This document shows positions 5,846 to 15,588 of a DNA stretch of 32,210 bases, piece by piece. A program made the translations under genes and the position numbers. The first letter of the stretch is position 1. Each line of letters begins with the position of its first letter. Below the pieces are notes generated by a model. It had not been told where the DNA came from and made no database searches. It worked only from the letters and a program-made list of their open reading frames with translations. The DNA comes from a virus. Where the stretch lies: the IMG/VR virus record IMGVR_UViG_3300021963_000427, positions 1 to 32,210 of that record; one strand, written 5' to 3'.

Positions 5846-6345
5846 TTCCTTTAGACCCGATAGCGGCTCTTGATGGCTTACAAAAAGCTATCGGCATGGT
5901 TAAGAAAGCCAGTAAGGTAGCCAATGACCTAGGTGGGCTTGCGCCTATGCTTGGGCAGATGTTCAATGCCAAGAGCCAAGCTACTAAGGCAATGCTTCAA
6001 GCCAAGCGTGAGAAGACTGGTAGCAACATGGGTACGGCACTTCAGATTGAGATGGCTTTAGAGCAAGCCAGAGCATTTGAAGAAGAACTCAAGATGCTGT
6101 TCATGCAGACTGGCAAGATTGATGTCTGGAACAAGATTAAGGCTCGTCAGGCAGAGATGGACAGGGATGATGCTAAAGAACTTAGCGCATTAAAAGCTGA
6201 GGAAAAAAAACTCAAGCAACAGGAACAAGAGCAGTTGGAAATGGCTATGTTGATTGGCGGGATAGCGTTCGTTCTACTTCTCGTTGGTATCGGCATAAAC
6301 GAAATGATTGATTTCTGCCAAACAACTAAACGCTGTGGGCGATGA
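5842..6345 (+). CDS. Coiled-coil protein with C-terminal membrane anchor
   Basis: This 167-aa protein starts with a short apolar segment (IPLDPIAALDGLQKAIGMVK), then long charged helices (about 45-133) rich in Ala, Glu, Lys and Gln. One membrane span follows at about residues 134-151 (MAMLIGGIAFVLLLVGIGI), then a short basic tail. Proteins of this plan occur beside the lysis genes of several podoviruses of aquatic bacteria; their function is not established. Starts and stops are coupled by ATGA on both sides. It may be a membrane-tethered lysis or virion assembly factor. Confidence 0.75.
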   Translation: MIPLDPIAALDGLQKAIGMVKKASKVANDLGGLAPMLGQMFNAKSQATKAMLQAKREKTGSNMGTALQIEMALEQARAFEEELKMLFMQTGKIDVWNKIKARQAEMDRDDAKELSALKAEEKKLKQQEQEQLEMAMLIGGIAFVLLLVGIGINEMIDFCQTTKRCGR

Positions 6346-7354: not shown

Positions 7355-7818
7355 TGCTACCTATCCCACTACCTTGGCTAATTGTTGGTGTTTTGGTATC
7401 TCTCTTTGGTACATACCGAGTAGGGCATCACTATGGTTGGCTAGAGCGTGATAACGACATGAAGTTAGCCATTGCTAAAAAGAACGATGAAGCTAGGGAG
7501 TTAGAGAAGAATATGACTTCCAAGCTGTCAGACCAAGAGACTAAACTGAGAAAGGCACAAGATGAAATTGCTAAAAAGAAGTCTGCTATGCACGAGCTTG
7601 CTAGGACTGGTAAGTTGCGCCTCCCAACCGCCAGTTGTCCACAAGCCAGCGCAAATCCCGCCACTCCCACAGGAGATAGCACCGATGCAAGCGAACTTGA
7701 GCGACAGACTATTGCAACTCTTATCGACATCGCAGCCGAAGGAGACAAAGCAATCACCAAACTCAACTCCTGTGTCGCAGCCTACAACGAAGTAAGGAAT
7801 CTAGTAAATGGTCAATAA
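7351..7818 (+). CDS. Rz: Rz-like inner-membrane spanin
   Basis: This 155-aa protein is a typical i-spanin: an amino-terminal membrane segment (about residues 8-22, PWLIVGVLVSLFGTY) followed by a periplasmic coiled coil (about 33-85, rich in Lys and Glu). The distal part carries two cysteines. It works with the nested Rz1 lipoprotein to span the periplasm and fuse inner and outer membranes in the last step of lysis. The ATG overlaps the previous stop. The embedded out-of-frame Rz1 gene makes the assignment strong even though sequence conservation among spanins is low. Confidence 0.88.
   Translation: MMLPIPLPWLIVGVLVSLFGTYRVGHHYGWLERDNDMKLAIAKKNDEARELEKNMTSKLSDQETKLRKAQDEIAKKKSAMHELARTGKLRLPTASCPQASANPATPTGDSTDASELERQTIATLIDIAAEGDKAITKLNSCVAAYNEVRNLVNGQ
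7562..7795 (+). CDS. Rz1: Rz1-like outer-membrane spanin, nested in Rz
   Basis: This 77-aa ORF lies wholly inside the Rz gene in another frame, the classic embedded Rz/Rz1 layout. The signal peptide MKLLKRSLLCTSLLGLVSC ends in a lipobox, LVSC, with Cys19 as the lipidation site. The mature part is short and proline-rich (QPPVVHKPAQIPPLPQE), as in known o-spanins. It is predicted to sit in the outer membrane and meet the Rz coiled coil in the periplasm. Confidence 0.88.
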   Translation: MKLLKRSLLCTSLLGLVSCASQPPVVHKPAQIPPLPQEIAPMQANLSDRLLQLLSTSQPKETKQSPNSTPVSQPTTK

Positions 7819-8407: not shown

Positions 8408-8774
8408 TATACCAACTCAACAAGATGCAGAACTGTTCGCACAAAGCGTAAAAAAATGGCAACAGGTGCTGTCTCTTGGTGATTGGAGAATTGAAAAAGG
8501 CATAAAGCCAGCCAAGGGTGCAATGGCATCTGTTGAATTTACTGATAACGCTAGATTGGCGGTTTATCGGTTAGGTGATTTTGGTGCAGAAAAGATAACA
8601 CCCGAATCACTTGATAAGACTGCACTACACGAGTTACTGCATATCTTTTTGCATGACTTGATGTGTGTAGCTACAGACCCAAAGTCCTCTGATGAGGATA
8701 TTGAAATGCAAGAGCATAGGGTTATTAACTTGCTAGAAAACCTATTGACCAAGGATTCCAATGGGCGCACATAA
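8400..8774 (+). CDS. Putative zinc metallopeptidase-like protein (HExxHxxxH)
   Basis: This 124-aa protein has a clear zinc-binding signature, HELLHIFLH (His77, Glu78, His81, His85). A later EHRVINLLENLL helix (Glu105, His106) may add a ligand. The amino half includes DWRIEKG and ARLAVYRLGDF, consistent with an alpha/beta fold before the active-site helix. The motif is typical of gluzincin/metzincin-like folds, including small phage SprT-like proteins. A substrate cannot be inferred. It overlaps the endolysin by eight bases and the phosphoesterase by 14, so it belongs to the late lysis transcript. Confidence 0.75.
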   Translation: MANIPTQQDAELFAQSVKKWQQVLSLGDWRIEKGIKPAKGAMASVEFTDNARLAVYRLGDFGAEKITPESLDKTALHELLHIFLHDLMCVATDPKSSDEDIEMQEHRVINLLENLLTKDSNGRT

Positions 8775-9747
8775 TCAGACTTGCACAGATGTTGAATTTA
8801 TCAAGCTGTGGGGCGAACTTAAATCAGCAGCGAAAATTGCAGAACACCTTGATATTGCATTAAGAGCAGTTTATCAGCGTAGACGTTGGATAGAGGAAAC
8901 CTACAAGATTAAGCTAGGTGCTGATGACCATCGTGGTGCTAAATACGATTCTAGCAGACCAAAATCCTATTCTCCTTTGAAGCAAATAAACCTTGGCATA
9001 GAGGATGGAGTGGTGTTGGTGTTCTCTGATGCTCATTTTGTGCCGCACCAACGCACTACAGCCTTTAAAGGGCTTCTATGGGCTATCCAAGAGTTCAAGC
9101 CTAAAGCGGTGATATGCAATGGTGATGCTTTTGATGGTGCGTCTATATCTCGTCACGATGCTTCTGACCAACCACAGACTTCTGTTATTCAAGAGTTAAA
9201 GGCTTGTCAGGCAATGTTGGGTGAGATTGAAGAAGCAGCTAAAGCAGAACGACACAATGTAAAGCTAATCTTTACATACGGCAATCACGATGCTCGATTT
9301 GCTACTCGTCTGGCAAACAATGCGCCTCAGTTCAAAGATGTTCAAGGTTTTAAATTACCAGACCATATCCCAGATTGGGACTTCTGTTGGGCTTGTTGGC
9401 CTACAGAGGAGGTCATTGTGAAGCACCGATACAAGGGTGGTGTTCATGCCACACACAACAATACTGTAAACGCTGGTGTGTCTATCGTTACTGGTCACTT
9501 GCACTCATTAAAGGTTACGCCTTTCTCTGACTACAATGGATGTAGATACGGAGTAGATACAGGAACTCTTGCAGAGCCTGATGGCCCACAGTTCACTTAT
9601 GGTGAGTTAAATCCATCTAATCACAGGTCAGGCTTTGCGGTGCTGACCTTTTTTAATGGCAAGCTGTTATGGCCTGAGCTAGTCCACAAGTTCGATGAAA
9701 ACATGGTGGAGTTTCGTGGCGATGTTATTGATGTGAGTTTATTTTGA
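8761..9747 (+). CDS. Calcineurin-like metallophosphoesterase with N-terminal HTH
   Basis: This 328-aa protein has an amino-terminal helix-turn-helix-like part (about residues 10-50: SAAKIAEHLDIALRAVYQRR). A complete metallophosphoesterase core follows: SDAH (Asp90, His92), NGDAFD (Asn120, Asp122), YGNHD (Asn175, His176, Asp177), GVHATH (His229) and TGHLH (His246, His248). These residues bind two metals in the calcineurin-like superfamily. The substrate is unknown; phage members act on nucleic acids or nucleotides. The HTH suggests DNA association. It overlaps the HExxH gene by 14 bases. It is odd to find an intact nuclease-type enzyme at the end of the lysis block. Confidence 0.9.
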   Translation: MGAHNQTCTDVEFIKLWGELKSAAKIAEHLDIALRAVYQRRRWIEETYKIKLGADDHRGAKYDSSRPKSYSPLKQINLGIEDGVVLVFSDAHFVPHQRTTAFKGLLWAIQEFKPKAVICNGDAFDGASISRHDASDQPQTSVIQELKACQAMLGEIEEAAKAERHNVKLIFTYGNHDARFATRLANNAPQFKDVQGFKLPDHIPDWDFCWACWPTEEVIVKHRYKGGVHATHNNTVNAGVSIVTGHLHSLKVTPFSDYNGCRYGVDTGTLAEPDGPQFTYGELNPSNHRSGFAVLTFFNGKLLWPELVHKFDENMVEFRGDVIDVSLF

Positions 9748-9887: not shown

Positions 9888-10028
9888 TTTAACTGCTCTG
9901 TACTTAACATTCCATTCATGTTCTTCTTGAAACTTAATGAAGTCATAGAATGTTTTAACTACATCAAAGTCTTCAGTTTCAATGGTTATCTTGTCTCTGA
10001 AATAACCAAAGTGCATTTCAAATTTCAC
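9855..10028 (-). CDS. Small hypothetical protein, end of early minus operon
   Basis: This 57-aa ORF on the - strand starts with GTG at 10028. It is coupled to the MazG-like gene by a GTGA overlap, with AAGGAG five bases upstream inside that gene. The product (VKFEMHFGYFRDKITIETED and on) is charged and aromatic, with FDVVKTFYDFIKFQEEHEW in the middle and a basic carboxy end (RAVKSLRKKVESDI). No family is recognised. It is the last gene of the leftward operon, and its end overlaps the + strand gene at 9744-9887. Confidence 0.65.
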   Translation of the reverse strand: MKFEMHFGYFRDKITIETEDFDVVKTFYDFIKFQEEHEWNVKYRAVKSLRKKVESDI

Positions 10029-10333
10029 GATGACTCCTTGACGAACAGTCCATTAGGCAAAAGCGTACCCCTACGATTCTTTATCTGGTCGTATGCAACT
10101 TCCATACAGTCTACCAGATTGATGTCTTGCAAAGCACAGTAATTAACAAGGCAGACCATGACATCACCAACAGCGTCCACAATAGCTTCCTTGTCTTTCT
10201 TAATGGTTGCATCTGCTAGTTCTCCCATCTCTGACATTGCTTTTAGAAGCTGAACTTCTGGTGTACTGTTAGGAATAATCTTACGAGCCTCTGCCCATTG
10301 GATTATTTTTATTTCTACATTTGCGTATGACAT
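10025..10333 (-). CDS. MazG-like nucleotide pyrophosphohydrolase
   Basis: This 102-aa protein reads from the ATG at 10333, preceded by AAAAGGATAGAT; an upstream in-frame start at 10366 lacks a good ribosome site. The MazG/all-alpha NTP pyrophosphatase signature is present: SEMGELADA (Glu35, Glu38) and IVDAVGDVMVCLVN (Asp53, Asp57). The acidic residues coordinate Mg2+. The family hydrolyses (d)NTPs to monophosphates, and in phages may clear aberrant nucleotides or alter alarmone levels. It lies downstream of the nuclease-like gene in the leftward early operon. Confidence 0.85.
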   Translation of the reverse strand: MSYANVEIKIIQWAEARKIIPNSTPEVQLLKAMSEMGELADATIKKDKEAIVDAVGDVMVCLVNYCALQDINLVDCMEVAYDQIKNRRGTLLPNGLFVKESS

Positions 10334-10998: not shown

Positions 10999-11613
10999 TT
11001 AAACTTCCTTTGCTTTCTTGATGGCGCTTCTTACATTGCTTGGCATCAAAGTCCAAAGAGCAACCTTTTGGTCAGCTTCTAAGTTCTCTTTCTCCAACCT
11101 AACCCAAGCAGCCTTTGGGTCTTTTTCACAAATAGCAATTAGTTCAACTGCTAGTTCATCGAGATACCTAAGTTCTTCAATAGGTAACTCATCTCGTATT
11201 CCTTGCGCTGGTGCAATGACTGGTGCTTTCTTTTCTTCCTTGAGTGGCGCAGAGGAATCCAGAGCGTCATGCTCAACAATCTCCATTGCTGTAACCCATA
11301 GGTAACGTCTTGTGTAGGTTTCTACAGCCCCTAGGTTCTGGATAGGATGGCAGCCTTTTAGGTTAGCATCTGCCATTGGTGAAGTAATGATGATGTTAGT
11401 GCCATCTTCAACATCTGTGATTGTAAGACTGGCTATCTCTGAATCATAAGATACTACGCCACATAACCCAACTTCAAAAAAGATTTCATTGATAGTTGGG
11501 ATAAAGTCACCAAGTTCAAAGTATTGATAACCAGCAAACTTATTGTGACCAGACTTCTTAAGTTGTTTGTCTTGCAACATCAACCTTGCACGCATTAACT
11601 TTAAATGTACCAT
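10999..11613 (-). CDS. erf: ERF-family single-strand annealing protein
   Basis: This 204-aa protein starts at the ATG at 11613, seven bases after AAGGA; an ATG at 11619 overlapping the previous stop (ATGA) is an alternative start adding two residues. The ERF core is recognisable: KFAGYQYFELGDF (about residues 25-37), LTITDVEDG (about 63-71), and the diagnostic NLGAVETYTRRYLWVTAMEI (about 93-112) followed by DALD. ERF proteins anneal complementary single strands during recombination and genome circularisation. The carboxy half (about 125-204) is a helical region of unknown role. Together with RusA, the PD-(D/E)XK protein and the SSB-like protein, it forms a phage recombination set. Confidence 0.88.
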   Translation of the reverse strand: MVHLKLMRARLMLQDKQLKKSGHNKFAGYQYFELGDFIPTINEIFFEVGLCGVVSYDSEIASLTITDVEDGTNIIITSPMADANLKGCHPIQNLGAVETYTRRYLWVTAMEIVEHDALDSSAPLKEEKKAPVIAPAQGIRDELPIEELRYLDELAVELIAICEKDPKAAWVRLEKENLEADQKVALWTLMPSNVRSAIKKAKEV

Positions 11614-11615
11614 TT

Positions 11616-11783
11616 TCATTTCCTTAAATATTCTTCAATCATTGCTTCTTTGTCTTCTTCATAGAGGTCTGAAAACTCTACAAAGTGGTTTTCTGCACAG
11701 CATGAGCCGTAGGTCTTTTGTTCAGTGCAGTAAACACAATACAAGCCGTGTGATAAGTCCTTGATTGCGTCTTCTCTGGTCAT
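11616..11783 (-). CDS. Small Cys-rich protein, possible zinc-binding (55 aa)
   Basis: This 55-aa ORF on the - strand (MTREDAIKDLSHGLYCVYCT and on) contains CVYC, then SCCAENH, which could form a metal site. The second half is acidic (DLYEEDKEAMIEEYLRK). The ATG overlaps the stop of the previous gene, and its own stop overlaps an ATG of erf. No family is recognised. The coupling on both sides supports that it is expressed. Confidence 0.7.
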   Translation of the reverse strand: MTREDAIKDLSHGLYCVYCTEQKTYGSCCAENHFVEFSDLYEEDKEAMIEEYLRK

Positions 11784-11938
11784 TGGATTCTGCCAATCTG
11801 TTTAGCAACTAACCACTTGTCACCAAGTTTAAGGACTGACCTGACCCACTTGCGTTGGTTGTATTGGTTGACTTGTTGTGGAACTAAACTGTTGTTGTAC
11901 AGTTGACGAGCCTTGCGTCTGAGTTGTTCTGTTTGCAT
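11780..11938 (-). CDS. Small basic protein (52 aa)
   Basis: This 52-aa protein is read from the ATG at 11938, with GGAGAGG about three bases upstream, which favours this over an upstream in-frame ATG. It is strongly basic (MQTEQLRRKARQLY at the start, NQRKWVRSVLKLGDKWLVAK near the end) and may bind nucleic acid. TAATG and ATGA overlaps link it to both neighbours. Similar short proteins with an RKWVRSV..LGDKW pattern occur in phages; function is unknown. Confidence 0.72.
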   Translation of the reverse strand: MQTEQLRRKARQLYNNSLVPQQVNQYNQRKWVRSVLKLGDKWLVAKQIGRIQ

Positions 11939-12030
11939 TAGCCTCTCCATGCCAACATTACACCGATACCGCCAAAGATGATGACAGCGAGTGTCCACTC
12001 TACGAGTGTTTGAATAATCTTACTTTTCAT
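11938..12030 (-). CDS. Tiny membrane protein (30 aa)
   Basis: This 30-aa ORF (MKSKIIQTLVEWTLAVIIFG and on to GIGVMLAWRG) has one predicted membrane helix with positive ends. A strong AAGGAG site lies seven bases before the ATG, and a GC-rich hairpin with a CTTAGT loop lies just before that. Its stop overlaps the next ATG (TAATG). The good ribosome site makes translation likely despite the size. Function is unknown. Confidence 0.68.
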   Translation of the reverse strand: MKSKIIQTLVEWTLAVIIFGGIGVMLAWRG

Positions 12031-12046
12031 TTGGTTCTCCTTAATT

Positions 12047-12062
12047 GGGGGACTAAGCCCCC
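12047..12062 (-). promoter_or_regulatory. Leader hairpin, GGGGG-CTTAGT-CCCCC
   Basis: On the - strand a perfect five-pair GC stem encloses the loop CTTAGT. AATT and the ribosome site AAGGAG of the 30-aa gene follow directly. There is no T-run, so it is not a normal terminator. The same hairpin (GGGGA-CTTAGT-TCCCC) lies at 15297-15312 in the same relative position of another operon. Confidence 0.8.
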
Positions 12063-12069
12063 TGTTAAT

Positions 12070-12231
12070 TTAGATTGATTTTTTGAATGTGCGGAACATT
12101 GCTTTGTATTCTTTGGAGTCAGCGTTCATATTGCTGTACACCACGTTGCCATTTGTGTCTAAGCGCATCATTGAAGTAAATGCGCCATAAACTACGAAGC
12201 CTGTAGATGTTTTGATTACTGAGCGTGTCAT
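12070..12231 (-). CDS. First gene of leftward early operon (53 aa, unknown)
   Basis: This 53-aa protein is read from the ATG at 12231, with AAGGA nine bases upstream; an in-frame start at 12309 would lie upstream of the promoter. The product (MTRSVIKTSTGFVVYGAFTS and on) is a small beta-rich, basic protein ending MFRTFKKSI. It is the first gene behind the leftward promoter, so it should be made early and in quantity. I recognise no family. Its leader matches that of the 68-aa gene at 15083. Confidence 0.75.
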   Translation of the reverse strand: MTRSVIKTSTGFVVYGAFTSMMRLDTNGNVVYSNMNADSKEYKAMFRTFKKSI

Positions 12232-12247
12232 TTGATTTTCCTTAATT

Positions 12248-12270
12248 GCCCGCTTACGAATTGTTGCGGG
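12248..12270 (-). promoter_or_regulatory. Leader hairpin with AATTC loop (copy 1)
   Basis: On the - strand, CCCGC (12270-12266) pairs with GCGGG (12253-12249), and an inner AC pairs with GT around the loop AATTC. It lies between the predicted transcript start and the ribosome site of the 53-aa gene. A related hairpin (CCC, GC, AATTC, GC, GGG) occupies the same place at 15045-15063. Confidence 0.7.
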
Positions 12271-12278
12271 TTGAGTGA

Positions 12279-12306
12279 AGTATAGCAATCTAAACAGACA
12301 GGTCAA
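12279..12306 (-). promoter_or_regulatory. Leftward early promoter
   Basis: The - strand has TTGACC (12306-12301), a 16-base spacer and TATACT (12284-12279) preceded by TGC, an extended -10. This is a strong sigma70-type promoter with a predicted start near 12272. From 12295 to 12268, 25 of 28 bases match the promoter region at 15020-15047. Confidence 0.85.
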
Positions 12307-12355
12307 CAATTATTTTCTAAGTATTTTCCCTAGTGTTGTATTTTGTTAACTAAGC

Positions 12356-12361
12356 TATACT
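12356..12361 (+). promoter_or_regulatory. Rightward -10 element for the Cro-like gene
   Basis: TATACT lies only six bases before the ATG at 12368. A start seven bases after the -10 would fall on the A of ATG, so the transcript would be leaderless. No ribosome site precedes the gene. The -35 region (about 12333-12339, TGTTG) is weak, which fits a promoter under operator control. Confidence 0.6.
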
Positions 12362-12367
12362 CAAAAG

Positions 12368-12520
12368 ATGGACAAACAAACCGCTATCACACTTGCTGGC
12401 TCACAGAGTGAGCTTGCTCGTATTCTTGGAATAACTCGGGCAGCAGTCTTCTTATGGAAGAAAATCCCTCAGTTACGCATTTATCAACTCAAAGAACTCA
12501 GACCAGATTGGTTTAAATGA
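12368..12520 (+). CDS. Cro-like HTH repressor (50 aa)
   Basis: This 50-aa protein is nearly all one helix-turn-helix domain: GSQSELARILGITRAAVFLW (residues 11-30) with a recognition helix around TRAAVFLW, then IPQLRIYQLKELRPDW. The pattern matches the small Cro/YdaS-like proteins of phage and prophage control regions, including the conserved R..QL..LRP end. It lies next to a divergent promoter pair and is the first gene of the rightward operon, the expected place for Cro. No partner CI repressor is visible on the opposite strand. The ATG is six bases from the -10 and lacks a Shine-Dalgarno site. Confidence 0.88.
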   Translation: MDKQTAITLAGSQSELARILGITRAAVFLWKKIPQLRIYQLKELRPDWFK

Positions 12521-12714
12521 AACGGCTATATCATTACTTCAACTATAAGTCTTTGATGATGCAACATCTGTCATTTGCCACAGAGAATGGGTCACTAAAC
12601 GATTCTTTGTTTCACTTGCTTTGGTATCACTACTACAAAGACGAAGCACAAGCTCACTACTTTGCAATGATGCACAAAGAACGTGAAACTTTACATAAAT
12701 TGATGATTCTATGA
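12517..12714 (+). CDS. Small early protein (65 aa), unknown
   Basis: This 65-aa protein is rich in His, Tyr, Phe and Met (MKRLYHYFNYKSLMMQHLSF; HLLWYHYYKDEAQAHYFAMM). It is coupled by ATGA to the Cro-like gene and to the next gene. The composition suggests a compact helical protein. No metal site or known fold is evident. It is transcribed with cro. Confidence 0.7.
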   Translation: MKRLYHYFNYKSLMMQHLSFATENGSLNDSLFHLLWYHYYKDEAQAHYFAMMHKERETLHKLMIL

Positions 12715-13058
12715 CTCAAGCACAAATAATCAAAGCCCTCCAGAACGGCCCATTGACTTCACACGAAGTAGCTAACCTGACTGGTATGCCACAAGCCACA
12801 GTCCTATCAACAGCCAAGCAACTGCGTAGCCAAGGCAAACTGACAACAGAGCAGGTCAAGGTAGGAAGACATTGGGTTGCTCAATACACCTTGGTTGACA
12901 ATAAAATAGAAAAGCAAGACAGCAATGTAAAAATCATCTGTGGCATTAAGACTTACGGAATCTTTACAAAAGCTGAATATGCTGTGATGAAACAACAGGC
13001 AACTCGTTTGTATGGCAAACAAGGTAAAAAAGAAATTACTAACAATCAATTTATTTGA
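12711..13058 (+). CDS. Winged-helix DNA-binding protein
   Basis: This 115-aa protein has a winged-helix domain at about residues 1-60: TQAQIIKALQNGPLTSHEVA, then GMPQATVLSTAKQLRSQGKL, with the wing at QVKVGRHWVAQYTL. The fold resembles MarR/IclR-type HTHs. The second half (about 62-115) is lysine-rich and ends polar. It sits just upstream of the replication gene and may regulate the early operon or act at the origin. It is coupled by ATGA to the previous gene. Confidence 0.75.
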   Translation: MTQAQIIKALQNGPLTSHEVANLTGMPQATVLSTAKQLRSQGKLTTEQVKVGRHWVAQYTLVDNKIEKQDSNVKIICGIKTYGIFTKAEYAVMKQQATRLYGKQGKKEITNNQFI

Positions 13059-13064
13059 TACAAT
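13056..13064 (+). promoter_or_regulatory. Candidate extended -10 promoter before replication gene
   Basis: TGATACAAT combines the TGA stop of the preceding gene with a TACAAT -10 box, giving a TGn extended -10. The start would fall near 13071, about 22 bases before the first ATG of the replication gene. The -35 match (TTACTA at a 17-base spacing) is poor. Confidence 0.45.
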
Positions 13065-13092
13065 AATTTGAAACACGGCTAGGTACGAAGTC

Positions 13093-13938
13093 ATGAGCGT
13101 ACCGAAAAGAGAAGTCTCCCCTCCTGCCGAAGTTTCTTTCTTGGGAGGATTGGAACATGAGACAACTATGCCTACACGCTATTTAAAGTCTGGTATTCGT
13201 GACAGCGAATCCATCGAAAACTTATCTCCTATTGCTGAAAATCTTTACTATCGTTTACTGGTAACAGTTGACGATTTTGGTCGTTATGACGCTAGACCAG
13301 CAATGATTAAGGCTGCTTGCTTCCCAATAAAAGACAGCATAAATGCAGCAAAAACAGAGGCTTTACTTAAAGAACTTGCACAGCATGGATTGATTGAAAT
13401 CTATGTTGACAATGACAAGCCTTATTTGCAAATGACCAAGTGGGACAATGTTCCTCGTGCAAAAGAAAGCAAGTACCCAACAAATCCGCACAATGCTGTA
13501 CAAGTGTATGCAGATGTATGCAACACACATACAGATGTACCTTTAACTAAAACAGAAACTAAAACAAAAACAGAAACTAAAACACTCGATGCGCCTGAAG
13601 GCGTTTCACCAGAAGTTTGGGATTCTTTTGTTAAACAAAGAAAAGTTGCTCGTGCTGTGATTACCGAAACTGTCATCAAGACAATAAGGTTTGAGGCTGA
13701 GAAGGCTGGCTGGACACTTGAGAAAGCATTGGCTGAGTGTGCTGCTCGTGGATGGAGAGGATTTAAAGCTGAATGGGTAATGGCTAAACCTAACCCTGCT
13801 GACAACATCAGGCTCACAGTTCCAGCGTCAAATGAGCCTAACCATGTTTTGCTAAAAATTGAAGCTGATAGAAAAAAAGCTGTTCCTCCATCTTTGGAGA
13901 CTTTAGCAAGAATGGCTCAATTGAGGTCTAAAGCATGA
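13093..13938 (+). CDS. Phage replication initiation protein
   Basis: This is a 281-aa ORF; the conserved protein probably starts at Met26 (13168, MPTRYLKSGIRDSESIENLS). Residues 26-130 form a winged-helix-like DNA-binding region (ENLYYRLLVTVDDFGRYDAR, PAMIKAACFP, AQHGLIEIYVDNDKPYLQMT). A Thr/Lys-rich linker follows (LTKTETKTKTETKT), then a second helical domain at about 170-230 (PEVWDSFVKQRK, GWRGFKAEW), a layout like lambda O and DnaD-type initiators. No helicase or polymerase gene is seen, so the host replisome is presumably recruited. The best ribosome site here (GGGAGG, 13143) points to a nine-codon out-of-frame mini-ORF at 13157, leaving the true start uncertain. Confidence 0.78.
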   Translation: MSVPKREVSPPAEVSFLGGLEHETTMPTRYLKSGIRDSESIENLSPIAENLYYRLLVTVDDFGRYDARPAMIKAACFPIKDSINAAKTEALLKELAQHGLIEIYVDNDKPYLQMTKWDNVPRAKESKYPTNPHNAVQVYADVCNTHTDVPLTKTETKTKTETKTLDAPEGVSPEVWDSFVKQRKVARAVITETVIKTIRFEAEKAGWTLEKALAECAARGWRGFKAEWVMAKPNPADNIRLTVPASNEPNHVLLKIEADRKKAVPPSLETLARMAQLRSKA

Positions 13939-14042
13939 GCCACTATGAAGCAATGAAACTACTGGATAAGGTGCGTGAAGGCGTACCATTTCCGATACAT
14001 CTGATAAACAAAGCATTGGAACTGACTGGTGACTTGGAGTAG
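13935..14042 (+). CDS. Tiny conserved-type phage protein (35 aa)
   Basis: This 35-aa ORF (MSHYEAMKLLDKVREGVPFP and on to IHLINKALELTGDLE) starts on an ATGA overlap with the replication gene. Its 3' end overlaps the next gene's GTG start. The pattern of two short helices ending in LTGDL occurs in short proteins of betaproteobacterial phages. Function is unknown. Confidence 0.65.
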   Translation: MSHYEAMKLLDKVREGVPFPIHLINKALELTGDLE

Positions 14043-14241
14043 AAGAAATATTCAAGGCCCAAGCGATAGGGTAATTCTTGAGCAAGCAGAGGCTCGAGAA
14101 CTCTATCGTAATTGGGAATGGTCAAAGAATCGTGACCTGATTCGCGCAAGGCTTGAAAAAGCAGAACGAATTTATGGGACTGGTGCTAGAGACAGGATTC
14201 GTGCGTACATGGCACAAATGCGAGAAGGAAAACTGGAATGA
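14029..14241 (+). CDS. Small basic helical protein (GTG start)
   Basis: This 70-aa protein reads from GTG at 14029; the first in-frame ATG is very late (14208), so a non-ATG start is needed. It is highly charged (SDRVILEQAEARELYRNWEW, NRDLIRARLEKAERIYGTGA, RDRIRAYMAQMREGKLE) and probably two long helices. It overlaps the 35-aa gene by 14 bases and RusA by four (ATGA). It probably supports replication or recombination by context only. Confidence 0.68.
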   Translation: MTWSRRNIQGPSDRVILEQAEARELYRNWEWSKNRDLIRARLEKAERIYGTGARDRIRAYMAQMREGKLE

Positions 14242-14666
14242 CATTTATCGTCACATTTAAGGTTGATGGCAACCCTGTTGGTAAGCAAAGAGCAAGGTAT
14301 GCCAAGCGTGGAAACTTTGTCCAAACTTACACACCTGAGAAAACCAGAACATACGAATCTTTGATTAAAGACTCAGCAAAGCAAGCAATGGGGTCTTCCG
14401 AGCCTTTAGAGACCCCTGTGAGTCTTTATTTATACATCCGAGTGCCAATCCCTGCATCTGCTACAAAAAAGCGTTTGGAGGCCATTGCTAAAGGTGATGA
14501 AAAACCAATCAAGAAACCTGATGCTTCCAATATTTTGAAAAGCATAGAAGACGGAATGAATGGAGTGGTTTACAAGGACGATTCGCAGATTGTAAATATC
14601 CATGTGACTAAGGTTTACTCAAGTCAAGCTGGTGTGGATATTTGTGTCAAGGAGTGTCTTGAATGA
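14238..14666 (+). CDS. rusA: RusA-type Holliday junction resolvase
   Basis: This 142-aa protein is full length for the family. It begins with a beta strand (TFIVTFKVDGNPVGKQRAR) carrying conserved basic residues. The active-site signature follows: KKPDASNILKSIEDGMNGVV and YKDDSQI, with Asp95, Asp105 and Asp114/115 as expected metal ligands. RusA cleaves four-way junctions symmetrically, and in phages resolves recombination intermediates before packaging. It is in the rightward early operon, coupled by ATGA on both sides. The assignment is secure. Confidence 0.93.
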   Translation: MTFIVTFKVDGNPVGKQRARYAKRGNFVQTYTPEKTRTYESLIKDSAKQAMGSSEPLETPVSLYLYIRVPIPASATKKRLEAIAKGDEKPIKKPDASNILKSIEDGMNGVVYKDDSQIVNIHVTKVYSSQAGVDICVKECLE

Positions 14667-14995
14667 AAGCGCCATACAAAGCTATTGAGTACATCATTGA
14701 AAATTCATGCAAATATGCGGAAGCTAAAGCACAAAGAATATACCTTGATGAGTTTCGAAAAACAAAGAAGGCTTTGCTGATGAAAGATGCAATGGCTAAA
14801 GGGATAGATTCTGCTGTTGCTCAAGAGCGTGAAGCTTATGCACACTACGAATATGCAGACCTGCTAAAAGGTTTGATGATTGCCATTGAGAAAGAAGAAA
14901 CCTTAAAGTGGATGCTTGTTGCTGCCCAGATGAAAGCTGACATTTGGAGAAGTGAGCAAGCAAGTGAGCGAGTTGGCGTAAAAACCACAGAGTAG
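14663..14995 (+). CDS. Helical protein next to RusA, unknown function
   Basis: This 110-aa protein is almost entirely helical and charged (KAIEYIIENSCKYAEAKAQR, DEFRKTKKALLMKDAMAKGI, EKEETLKWMLVAAQMKADIW). Proteins with this pattern are often coded beside RusA in phages of Burkholderiales, but their role is unknown to me. The ATGA overlap with RusA suggests stoichiometric expression. No catalytic residues stand out. Confidence 0.78.
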   Translation: MKAPYKAIEYIIENSCKYAEAKAQRIYLDEFRKTKKALLMKDAMAKGIDSAVAQEREAYAHYEYADLLKGLMIAIEKEETLKWMLVAAQMKADIWRSEQASERVGVKTTE

Positions 14996-15019
14996 GTATA
15001 AACACCTAGTAGATATTGT

Positions 15020-15036
15020 GTTTAGTTTGCTATACT
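15020..15036 (+). promoter_or_regulatory. Second early promoter, matching the leftward one
   Basis: TATACT (15031-15036) preceded by TGC gives an extended -10. The stretch 15020-15047 matches 12295-12268 of the opposite strand at 25 of 28 positions. The -35 region is poor here (GTAGAT), unlike TTGACC in the other copy, suggesting a weaker or activated promoter. Confidence 0.75.
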
Positions 15037-15044
15037 TCAGTCAG

Positions 15045-15063
15045 CCCAAGCAATTCGCAAGGG
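15045..15063 (+). promoter_or_regulatory. Leader hairpin with AATTC loop (copy 2)
   Basis: CCC (15045-15047) pairs with GGG (15061-15063), and an inner GC pairs with GC around AATTC. It sits between the promoter and TTTTAAGGAAATCAAG, the ribosome site of the 68-aa gene. It mirrors the hairpin at 12248-12270. Confidence 0.65.
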
Positions 15064-15082
15064 TACTTTTAAGGAAATCAAG

Positions 15083-15289
15083 ATGGCACAAGTTTTTAAA
15101 GCATATGTTTACCAAGACAATCGTTGCTTTATTGGTGAGATTGAAGGCGTAAACATTAACACCAACATTGCAGAAATTAAAAACACACCTATTGAGTTTT
15201 ATGCAAACTCAAAGCAGGAATTGCTTGCTGATATGGTTAAGTTCTTAAAAGGAACTGGACGCACAGGTGTTTTGCGAGTTGCCAATTAA
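15083..15289 (+). CDS. Small early protein behind second promoter (68 aa)
   Basis: This 68-aa protein (MAQVFKAYVYQDNRCFIGEI and on) is probably a small alpha/beta protein, with strands at the start and a helix around SKQELLADMVKFLKG. AAGGA lies eight bases upstream. It is the first gene behind a promoter and leader nearly identical to those of the 53-aa leftward gene. The two proteins show little similarity apart from a possible SK-E/Q helix near the end. Function is unknown. Confidence 0.78.
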   Translation: MAQVFKAYVYQDNRCFIGEIEGVNINTNIAEIKNTPIEFYANSKQELLADMVKFLKGTGRTGVLRVAN

Positions 15290-15296
15290 ATCAATA

Positions 15297-15312
15297 GGGG
15301 ACTTAGTTCCCC
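15297..15312 (+). promoter_or_regulatory. Leader hairpin, GGGGA-CTTAGT-TCCCC
   Basis: A five-pair stem with the loop CTTAGT lies seven bases after the stop of the 68-aa gene. It is followed by ACTTTTAAGGA, the ribosome site of the next gene. Loop sequence, stem length and position match the hairpin at 12047-12062. Confidence 0.8.
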
Positions 15313-15330
15313 ACTTTTAAGGAATACAAA

Positions 15331-15588
15331 ATGAAATACGAATTTGACACAACTGTTGGTGAAGGCTCTGTAGTGGTTACTGTTGTCATGGAATACGACA
15401 CAGACTCAGAAGGCATTTATGGCGAGAACATTGAAGACATTATTTACGAGAAGGTAAGTGTGCTTGGTCTATTCTCTGCTGAACAATTTAAAGAACTTGA
15501 GATTGAAGGCTGTATGCGTCTTTCTAAACACATCTTGGATGAATCAGACCACTCTGCATCTGTTGACTACGATATGCGAGGTGTCTGA
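15331..15588 (+). CDS. Acidic small early protein (85 aa)
   Basis: This 85-aa protein is markedly acidic (EYDTDSEGIYGENIEDIIYE; HILDESDHSASVDYDMRGV) with a hydrophobic beta start (VVVTVVMEY). AAGGA lies nine bases before the ATG. A small, acidic early phage protein could mimic DNA or bind a host protein, but nothing in the sequence proves that. Its stop shares one base with the next ATG (TGATG). Confidence 0.75.
   Translation: MKYEFDTTVGEGSVVVTVVMEYDTDSEGIYGENIEDIIYEKVSVLGLFSAEQFKELEIEGCMRLSKHILDESDHSASVDYDMRGV

Follow-up and report, generated by a model that had tools for sequence, protein, structure and literature searches.

The 32,210-bp viral DNA analyzed here (IMG/VR entry IMGVR_UViG_3300021963_000427, the whole of which is the window of this study) raises the question of why two early operons that carry different small genes should begin in the same way. 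An earlier note on this DNA had described, on the minus strand from 12306 to about 12047 and on the plus strand from 15020 to about 15312, the same succession of a TGC-TATACT promoter, a hairpin, a Shine-Dalgarno (SD) site, a small gene, a second hairpin, another SD site and a second small gene, and had proposed that a conserved regulatory framework is coupled to differing cargo. The comparison with related viral loci leads us to think that the two leaders are probably copies of one early-expression socket, in which a regulator-controlled promoter and a 5'-protective hairpin would serve exchangeable cargo genes.

Within the window, all elements of both cassettes were found where the note had placed them and in the same order (Table 1). 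The promoter stretches, 12268-12296 on the minus strand and 15019-15047 on the plus strand, share 90% identity over 29 nucleotides (nt), in keeping with the 25 of 28 bases noticed before, and the cassettes are 72% identical through the leader and 78% identical through the second ribosome binding site (RBS), with exact matches to GGGGNCTTAGTNCCCC at the two cassette places only. Folding reproduced both leader hairpins, each with an AATTC pentaloop (-8.5 and -7.6 kcal/mol) and a free SD site, as well as the second hairpins in the form GGGG[G/A]-CTTAGT-[C/T]CCCC. The four small proteins fell into four separate BLAST clusters and are therefore not related, as had been suspected. Taken singly, each fold is weak evidence (z of -0.8 to -2.0), and it is the homologues that carry the case. 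Two features have to be added: a third similar promoter, which serves a cro-like gene and has no leader, and an operator-like dyad, overlooked before, upstream of the -10 boxes of both cassettes. The cro-like gene itself is predicted to be leaderless, with TATACT, 6 nt and then ATG (12356-12370), and the same spacing is seen in 81 of about 90 distinct relatives.

The arrangement recurs in two groups of uncultured freshwater viruses of bacteria. The near group, to which the phage of the window belongs, was retrieved by scanning viral contigs with two neighboring genes, and the distant group was found in a second scan with a related form of the leader, which returned 66 stretches. By their gene content, these phages are P22-like podoviruses, the window having PHROGs matches to a portal, a scaffold, a major head protein, Erf and a DNA ejection protein. 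The near group yielded 202 distinct instances of the leader motif in 165 loci, 3 of them being chance matches of another kind, and these occupy two fixed slots, one running rightward downstream of the homologue of the gene at 14663 and the other running leftward, in the direction opposite to the divergent cro-like gene. Rightward leaders hardly differ from one another, AGCCCAAGCAATTCGCAAGGGTACTTTTAAGGA being read in 79 distinct instances, although the promoters that precede them are of at least two sequence types. Some slots, namely 69 of the rightward and 40 of the leftward instances, hold no cargo, so that the leader adjoins the fixed gene, while an extra gene was found in 76 instances; a further 5 leftward slots start with another short gene, MNFEK. 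In the distant group, 91 units were found in 55 loci, with 1 to 6 units per locus and a leader of the form (C)ATGCCCCGAACTTCTTGGGGTCTT in many variants. Several of these loci (L317, L323, L330 and L287) carry tandem head-to-tail units, in which a hairpin, TAGGGAAACTACCTAGA, about 58 nt, TATAAT, the leader, a small gene and a further hairpin follow one another before the order repeats. The expectation that such a framework should recur with diverse small genes was thus borne out in about 165 near-group and 55 distant-group loci, in both of which the framework is conserved and the cargo differs.

The leader is, on the evidence of these sequences, an RNA element tied to the predicted start of transcription. 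The distance from the -10 hexamer (TATACT in 144, TACAAT in 47 and others in 8 of 199 instances) to the first A of the leader is 6 nt in 176 and 7 nt in 19 of the 199; in the remaining 4, the scored hexamer lies 11 nt away and another candidate stands at the usual distance. Given this spacing, the transcripts are predicted to start with A-GCCC, A-ACCC or A-UGCC, and in the window the 6-nt rule gives starts at 12272 (minus strand) and 15043 (plus strand), the positions named earlier. In folding, every one of the 46 distinct near-group leaders has its first paired base at +2 or +3, and 36 of 41 in the distant group have it at +3, whereas in shuffled sequences its position is spread out; the pairing probability of +3 to +5 is 0.96 and 0.86, compared with 0.43 and 0.44 in shuffles. 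Of 28 distinct leaders in the distant group, 25 form an uninterrupted stem of 5 bp or more starting at +3, compared with about 2 of 28 after shuffling. The stems have also changed in a compensatory manner. Leaders were aligned as classes of equal length, because a MAFFT alignment of all of them misplaced the stems; in the near group, inner pairs alternate between GC and AU and between CG and AU, with a score that none of the 500 shuffles and none of the slid controls reached, while in the distant group 3 pairs show double changes (CG/UA and CG/GC) and 100% of cells are paired. The argument for covariation is drawn from alignments A4 and A6 and from the spread of stems. Among 95 leader-like elements of the distant group, a -10 hexamer stands at the expected place in 90 and a weak one in 2. 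As in 5'-terminal stabilizing stem-loops, the stem starts in silico no more than about 2 nt from the mRNA 5' end, which is itself predicted. In L301, L305 and L314, and also in L116, a promoterless leader-like hairpin stands between two cargo genes, apparently the remnant of a lost promoter.

Framework and cargo appear to evolve apart. Clustering of all first genes gave 52 families, 2 of which are the fixed genes, leaving about 50 cargo families, and 10 clusters are common to the near and distant groups. Seven families of the near group (MAQV, MTRSV, NADCYF, NWMV, MNKPT, MKLYG and MSKYF) occur in both slots, and for these the best cross-slot identity of the coding sequence is 76 to 90%, compared with 71 to 76% for the leaders and 60 to 82% for the promoters of the same pairs; in the MAQV family, whose leftward-slot members were found in L064/L274 and L271, the best cross-slot pair (0.90) is even closer than the best same-slot pair (0.88). 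As the coding sequence moves and the promoter-leader stays with its slot, this contrast is the strongest sequence evidence for separate evolution, and indicates that the framework is conserved while its cargo genes are swapped, both between sockets and between phage groups. The earlier idea of a mobile or duplicated module therefore needs to be refined: the framework is recurrent, but in the near group what moves is chiefly the coding sequence, which may or may not take its downstream hairpin along, promoter and leader being slot-specific, whereas distant-group loci contain entire operator-promoter-leader-gene units one behind the other. The small genes had been suggested to act in host takeover; among the cargo checked in Pfam and PHROGs, no family has a known function. 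At one locus (L114), the first gene after the leader is a NADCYF-family member with an early in-frame stop (MSQIFKADCYL*), a decaying copy.

The second hairpin behaves differently from the leader in that it tracks the cargo family and not the slot: it is always found with MAQV, MTRSV, NADCYF, NWMV and MNKPT and never, in either slot, with MKLYG and MSKYF. In many families without it, the stop codon runs into the next SD site (TAAGGAG), and we read the hairpin as an intercistronic element that probably accompanies non-coupled genes. Its commonest form is GGGG[G/A]CTTAGT[C/T]CCCC, the fifth pair being GC in 17 and AU in 10 of 28 such forms. The loop also occurs as CATAGT, CTAGT or CGAAAG in the near group and as CGCAAG or CTTCGG in the distant group; because the loop varies and the motif is common in unrelated phages, CTTAGT can no longer be regarded as a specific signal. 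GGGG-N-CTTAGT-N-CCCC is frequent in unrelated phages (for example, in the viral contigs L002, L003, L037 and L049), often intergenic, with N complementary and in some cases with a T-run. We also considered the second hairpin as an intrinsic terminator and rejected this, as it has no U-run, the coding strand downstream being mostly ACTTTTAAG, AATTAAGGA, AATTAAAGG or ATCTAAGGA; a terminator scan of the coding strand did not list it.

Upstream of most units lies the dyad TAGGGAAAnTACCTA, an inverted repeat of the form TAGG-N6-8-CCTA and a candidate regulator site. It was found in 81 of 97 rightward-type, 80 of 88 leftward-type and 47 of 90 distant-group units, compared with about 2 in shuffled sequence, and, counted from the predicted start, it is centered at about -41.5, -52 or -62 (R = 0.93 for a period of 10; n = 208). 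The positions -41.5 and -61.5 are the classical ones of class II and class I activators, respectively; the dyads stand near these positions and in phase, as at activator-dependent promoters, and the -35 element is poorest where the dyad is centered at -41.5. Spacing by helical turns points to a DNA-binding regulator that touches RNA polymerase, and we infer that such a regulator binds the dyad. Of the earlier suggestion that one shared RNA-binding or DNA-binding factor reads both cassettes, the DNA-binding alternative is thus favored by the phased dyad, while a single RNA-binding factor is disfavored by leader loops and stems that vary widely.

The socket that we consider probable would comprise, in order, the dyad, a sigma70-type promoter, a hairpin that takes up the initial 21 to 25 nt of the transcript, an SD site and an exchangeable small gene, with a G4/C4 hairpin before the SD site of the fixed second gene in some families. 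It could work by several steps: (i) the dyad would bind an activator or a dual regulator contacting RNA polymerase; (ii) the 5'-terminal hairpin, with 1 to 2 nt unpaired, would shield the message from 5'-end-dependent decay, giving a stable message for any cargo; (iii) translation of the second gene would be made independent of the preceding cargo by the second hairpin or by a stop codon that overlaps the next SD site; and (iv) recombination between shared flanks, with the phage Erf annealing protein assisting, would swap the cargo. With regard to step (ii), a hairpin that leaves so few free nucleotides is, in model bacteria, an obstacle to decay that depends on the 5' end; Bacillus subtilis RppH is known to need at least 2 unpaired nucleotides and to prefer three or more (PMC3997798).

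Several other explanations deserve weighing. The cro-like helix-turn-helix (HTH) gene adjoins the dyad, which sits between divergent early promoters, so the dyad could be a repressor operator that silences these promoters in the lysogen, the hairpins being incidental; a center at -62, however, would not directly block polymerase, the helical phasing suits polymerase contact, and the proteins searched included no integrase, which leaves this reading somewhat unlikely, although a dual regulator resembling lambda CI may be involved. If the hairpins were instead translation elements, in which a stem upstream of the SD site keeps the RBS free of neighboring sequence and so makes genes swappable, one would understand why the same SD block follows both hairpins of a slot (ACTTTTAAGGA on the plus strand and CAATTAAGGA on the minus strand) and why, in three homologous loci, a promoterless leader-like hairpin separates two genes. 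Such a role would leave the close link with the transcription start unexplained, and computed accessibility from the SD site to AUG is nearly unchanged by deletion or shuffling of the leader (0.660 native, 0.657 deleted and 0.640 shuffled), which makes a pure RBS role less likely; as an account of the hairpins it seems to us unlikely. Insulation of the RBS as the main role was itself among the candidates tried, and is weakened by these near-equal values.

A leader hairpin that is recognized, in the manner of nut/boxB, by an RNA-binding or antitermination factor of the phage, or that acts in cis as an antiterminator like put of HK022, loading RNA polymerase on both early operons, would account for similar RNA leaders opening two early operons and for the A/A internal mismatches and A-rich pentaloops kept in the near group. 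This is hard to reconcile with the distant group, where stem and loop differ freely (AAACAAA, TAGTTC, ACATC and AATTCC) and where tandem single-gene units each have their own promoter and leader, so that long-range read-through is not needed. In addition, a boxA-like sequence was looked for in both leaders and not found, the element being a single short stem with a variable loop, and the region shows no excess of terminator-like sites over chance; we judge antitermination distinctly improbable. Cargo that is flanked by two hairpins and often exchanged also recalls integron cassettes, with the hairpins as DNA recombination sites and a recombinase moving the cargo. Yet several near-group families lack the second hairpin, and MKLYG and MSKYF, which are of this kind, are still found in both slots; no such recombinase was present among the proteins searched, while an Erf annealing protein was, and the stem changes are compensatory, as for RNA. 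This possibility can be given hardly any weight.

The socket interpretation, which we prefer, has to contend with several observations that weigh against it. Three of the 95 distant-group leader-like elements are homologous, intercistronic and without a promoter, which a purely 5'-end role leaves unexplained, and the pentaloops of both groups tend to A-NNN-C, which could mean recognition by a protein. In alignment A5, outer pairs change between AU and GC, but the covariation score is not above that of its shuffles. For each query, retrieval was confined to the 80 loci of greatest similarity, and since the counts take in related phages, instances are not to be equated with independent events; the phasing of the dyad may likewise partly reflect shared descent. 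Finally, start sites were predicted by the sigma70 rules of Escherichia coli, which may not be those of the host.

Searches beyond the two groups gave little. The leader had no match in the genome contigs searched, the bacterial genomes searched with the 14663 gene gave distant homologues only, and the deposited phages searched gave partial or distant homologues only; a Burkholderiales host did not emerge from these searches. An Rfam scan of the window returned no family above threshold, and the leaders were without any match. A subthreshold match to the int-alpA RNA (RF02996, 30.3 bits, E of 0.0016) lies at 13072-13148 on the plus strand, at the start of the replication gene, and a relative (L072) has two above-threshold copies of this RNA, at 6155-6220 and 7473-7548 on the minus strand. 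The window further contains genes for a MazG-like pyrophosphatase (10025-10333, minus strand) and a metallo-phosphoesterase (8761-9747, plus strand).

Table 1. Elements of the two cassettes and neighboring genes, with positions in the window (aa, amino acids; ssDNA, single-stranded DNA)
Feature	Position	Strand	Remarks
Erf-like ssDNA-annealing recombinase, in leftward operon	10999-11619	-	Putative agent of cargo exchange
MKSKIIQ, 30 aa, hydrophobic (membrane-like) peptide; conserved anchor gene of leftward slot	11938-12030	-	
Leftward intercistronic hairpin GGGGG-CTTAGT-CCCCC	12047-12062	-	Gene 2 SD at 12037-12042
Cargo gene MTRSVIK, 53 aa	12070-12231	-	SD AAGGA at 12239-12243; family in both slots
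Leftward 5'-terminal leader hairpin CCCGC-A-AC-AATTC-GT-AA-GCGGG	12249-12270	-	First pair at +3
Leftward early promoter TTGACC-16-TATACT, TGCTATACT at -10	12279-12306	-	Predicted +1 at 12272
Operator-like dyad TAGGGAAAATACTTA	12318-12332	-	48 nt upstream of leftward -10, center about -52; center about -42 from divergent cro promoter
cro-like HTH gene	12368-12520	+	-10 TATACT at 12356-12361, predicted leaderless; shares dyad at 12318-12332
Operator-like dyad TAGGTATAAACACCTA	14993-15008	+	38 nt upstream of rightward -10, center about -41.5
Rightward promoter, extended -10 TGC-TATACT (TGCTATACT), poor -35	15029-15036	+	Hexamer at 15031-15036; predicted +1 at 15043
Rightward 5'-terminal leader hairpin GCCC-AA-GC-AATTC-GC-AA-GGGU	15044-15064	+	First pair at +2
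Cargo gene MAQVFKAY, 68 aa	15083-15289	+	SD AAGGA at 15071-15075
Rightward intercistronic hairpin GGGGA-CTTAGT-TCCCC	15297-15312	+	Gene 2 SD at 15319-15323
MKYEFD, 85 aa; conserved anchor gene of rightward slot	15331-15588	+	

The combination of dyad, promoter and 5'-terminal hairpin provides a simple sequence handle on the accessory early genes that a large group of uncultured phages carries. Such genes would otherwise escape notice, being too short and unlike anything known, and about 50 families of them were found by this search. If the socket interpretation is true, expression control travels with the socket and not with the cargo, and the phased dyad predicts a single regulator for all sockets. 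On a more tentative note, phages other than the T4-like ones may have evolved such standard sockets independently, in which case the socket, rather than the gene, would set expression level and message stability.

The closest parallel is provided by the promoter early stem-loops (PeSLs) of T4-like myoviruses (Arbiol 2010, doi 10.1093/gbe/evq006, and Comeau 2014, doi 10.1093/gbe/evu129, as cited in PMC4503421, PMC3950731 and PMC5931544), which these citing papers describe as promoter/stem-loop cassettes tied to the shuffling of small genes (PMC4503421 and PMC3950731). So far as PeSLs are described there, the present system shares with them a host-type early promoter followed by a stem-loop and repeated in the genome (two in the window and up to six per contig in relatives), as well as the shuffling of small genes of unknown function, seen here in the 7 both-slot families and the 10 shared clusters. 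On the other hand, it belongs to P22-like podoviruses (here a 32-kb record) and not to T4-like myoviruses. It may also differ in that its stem-loop lies at the 5' end of the transcript (+2/+3) with a phased operator before the promoter, and in that its near-group sockets are fixed while the coding sequence moves, a second hairpin being present with certain cargo families. PeSL-like motifs have also been reported in the halovirus HGTV-1, with a promoter-like box and an inverted repeat before most open reading frames of one genome half (PMC3950731), but this is an archaeal myovirus, and the passage on HGTV-1 mentions no operator phasing or covariation. The SAS/ESAS elements of Cluster K mycobacteriophages, a 13-nt GGGATAGGAGCCC that in about half of the cases is accompanied by a 17-bp imperfect inverted repeat (PMC3203893), are similar in that a conserved element with inverted repeats closely precedes the start codons of numerous small genes that have no relation to one another, whereas the element described here consists of operator, promoter and an RNA stem at +2; a search of the window for GGGATAGGAGCCC with up to 2 deviations gave 0 matches. 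The stem-loops in the 5' untranslated regions of ompA and papA, described as 5'-terminal stabilizers (Emory 1992 and Bouvet 1992, as cited in PMC3997798), likewise lie at the extreme 5' end with no more than about 2 unpaired nt, but there each serves one host gene, whereas here a repeated phage module serves exchangeable genes, and an effect on decay would follow by analogy. Taken together, the sequence comparisons indicate a real, recurrent feature that works like a PeSL outside the T4-like phages, extending the idea of the promoter/stem-loop cassette from T4-like to P22-like phages.

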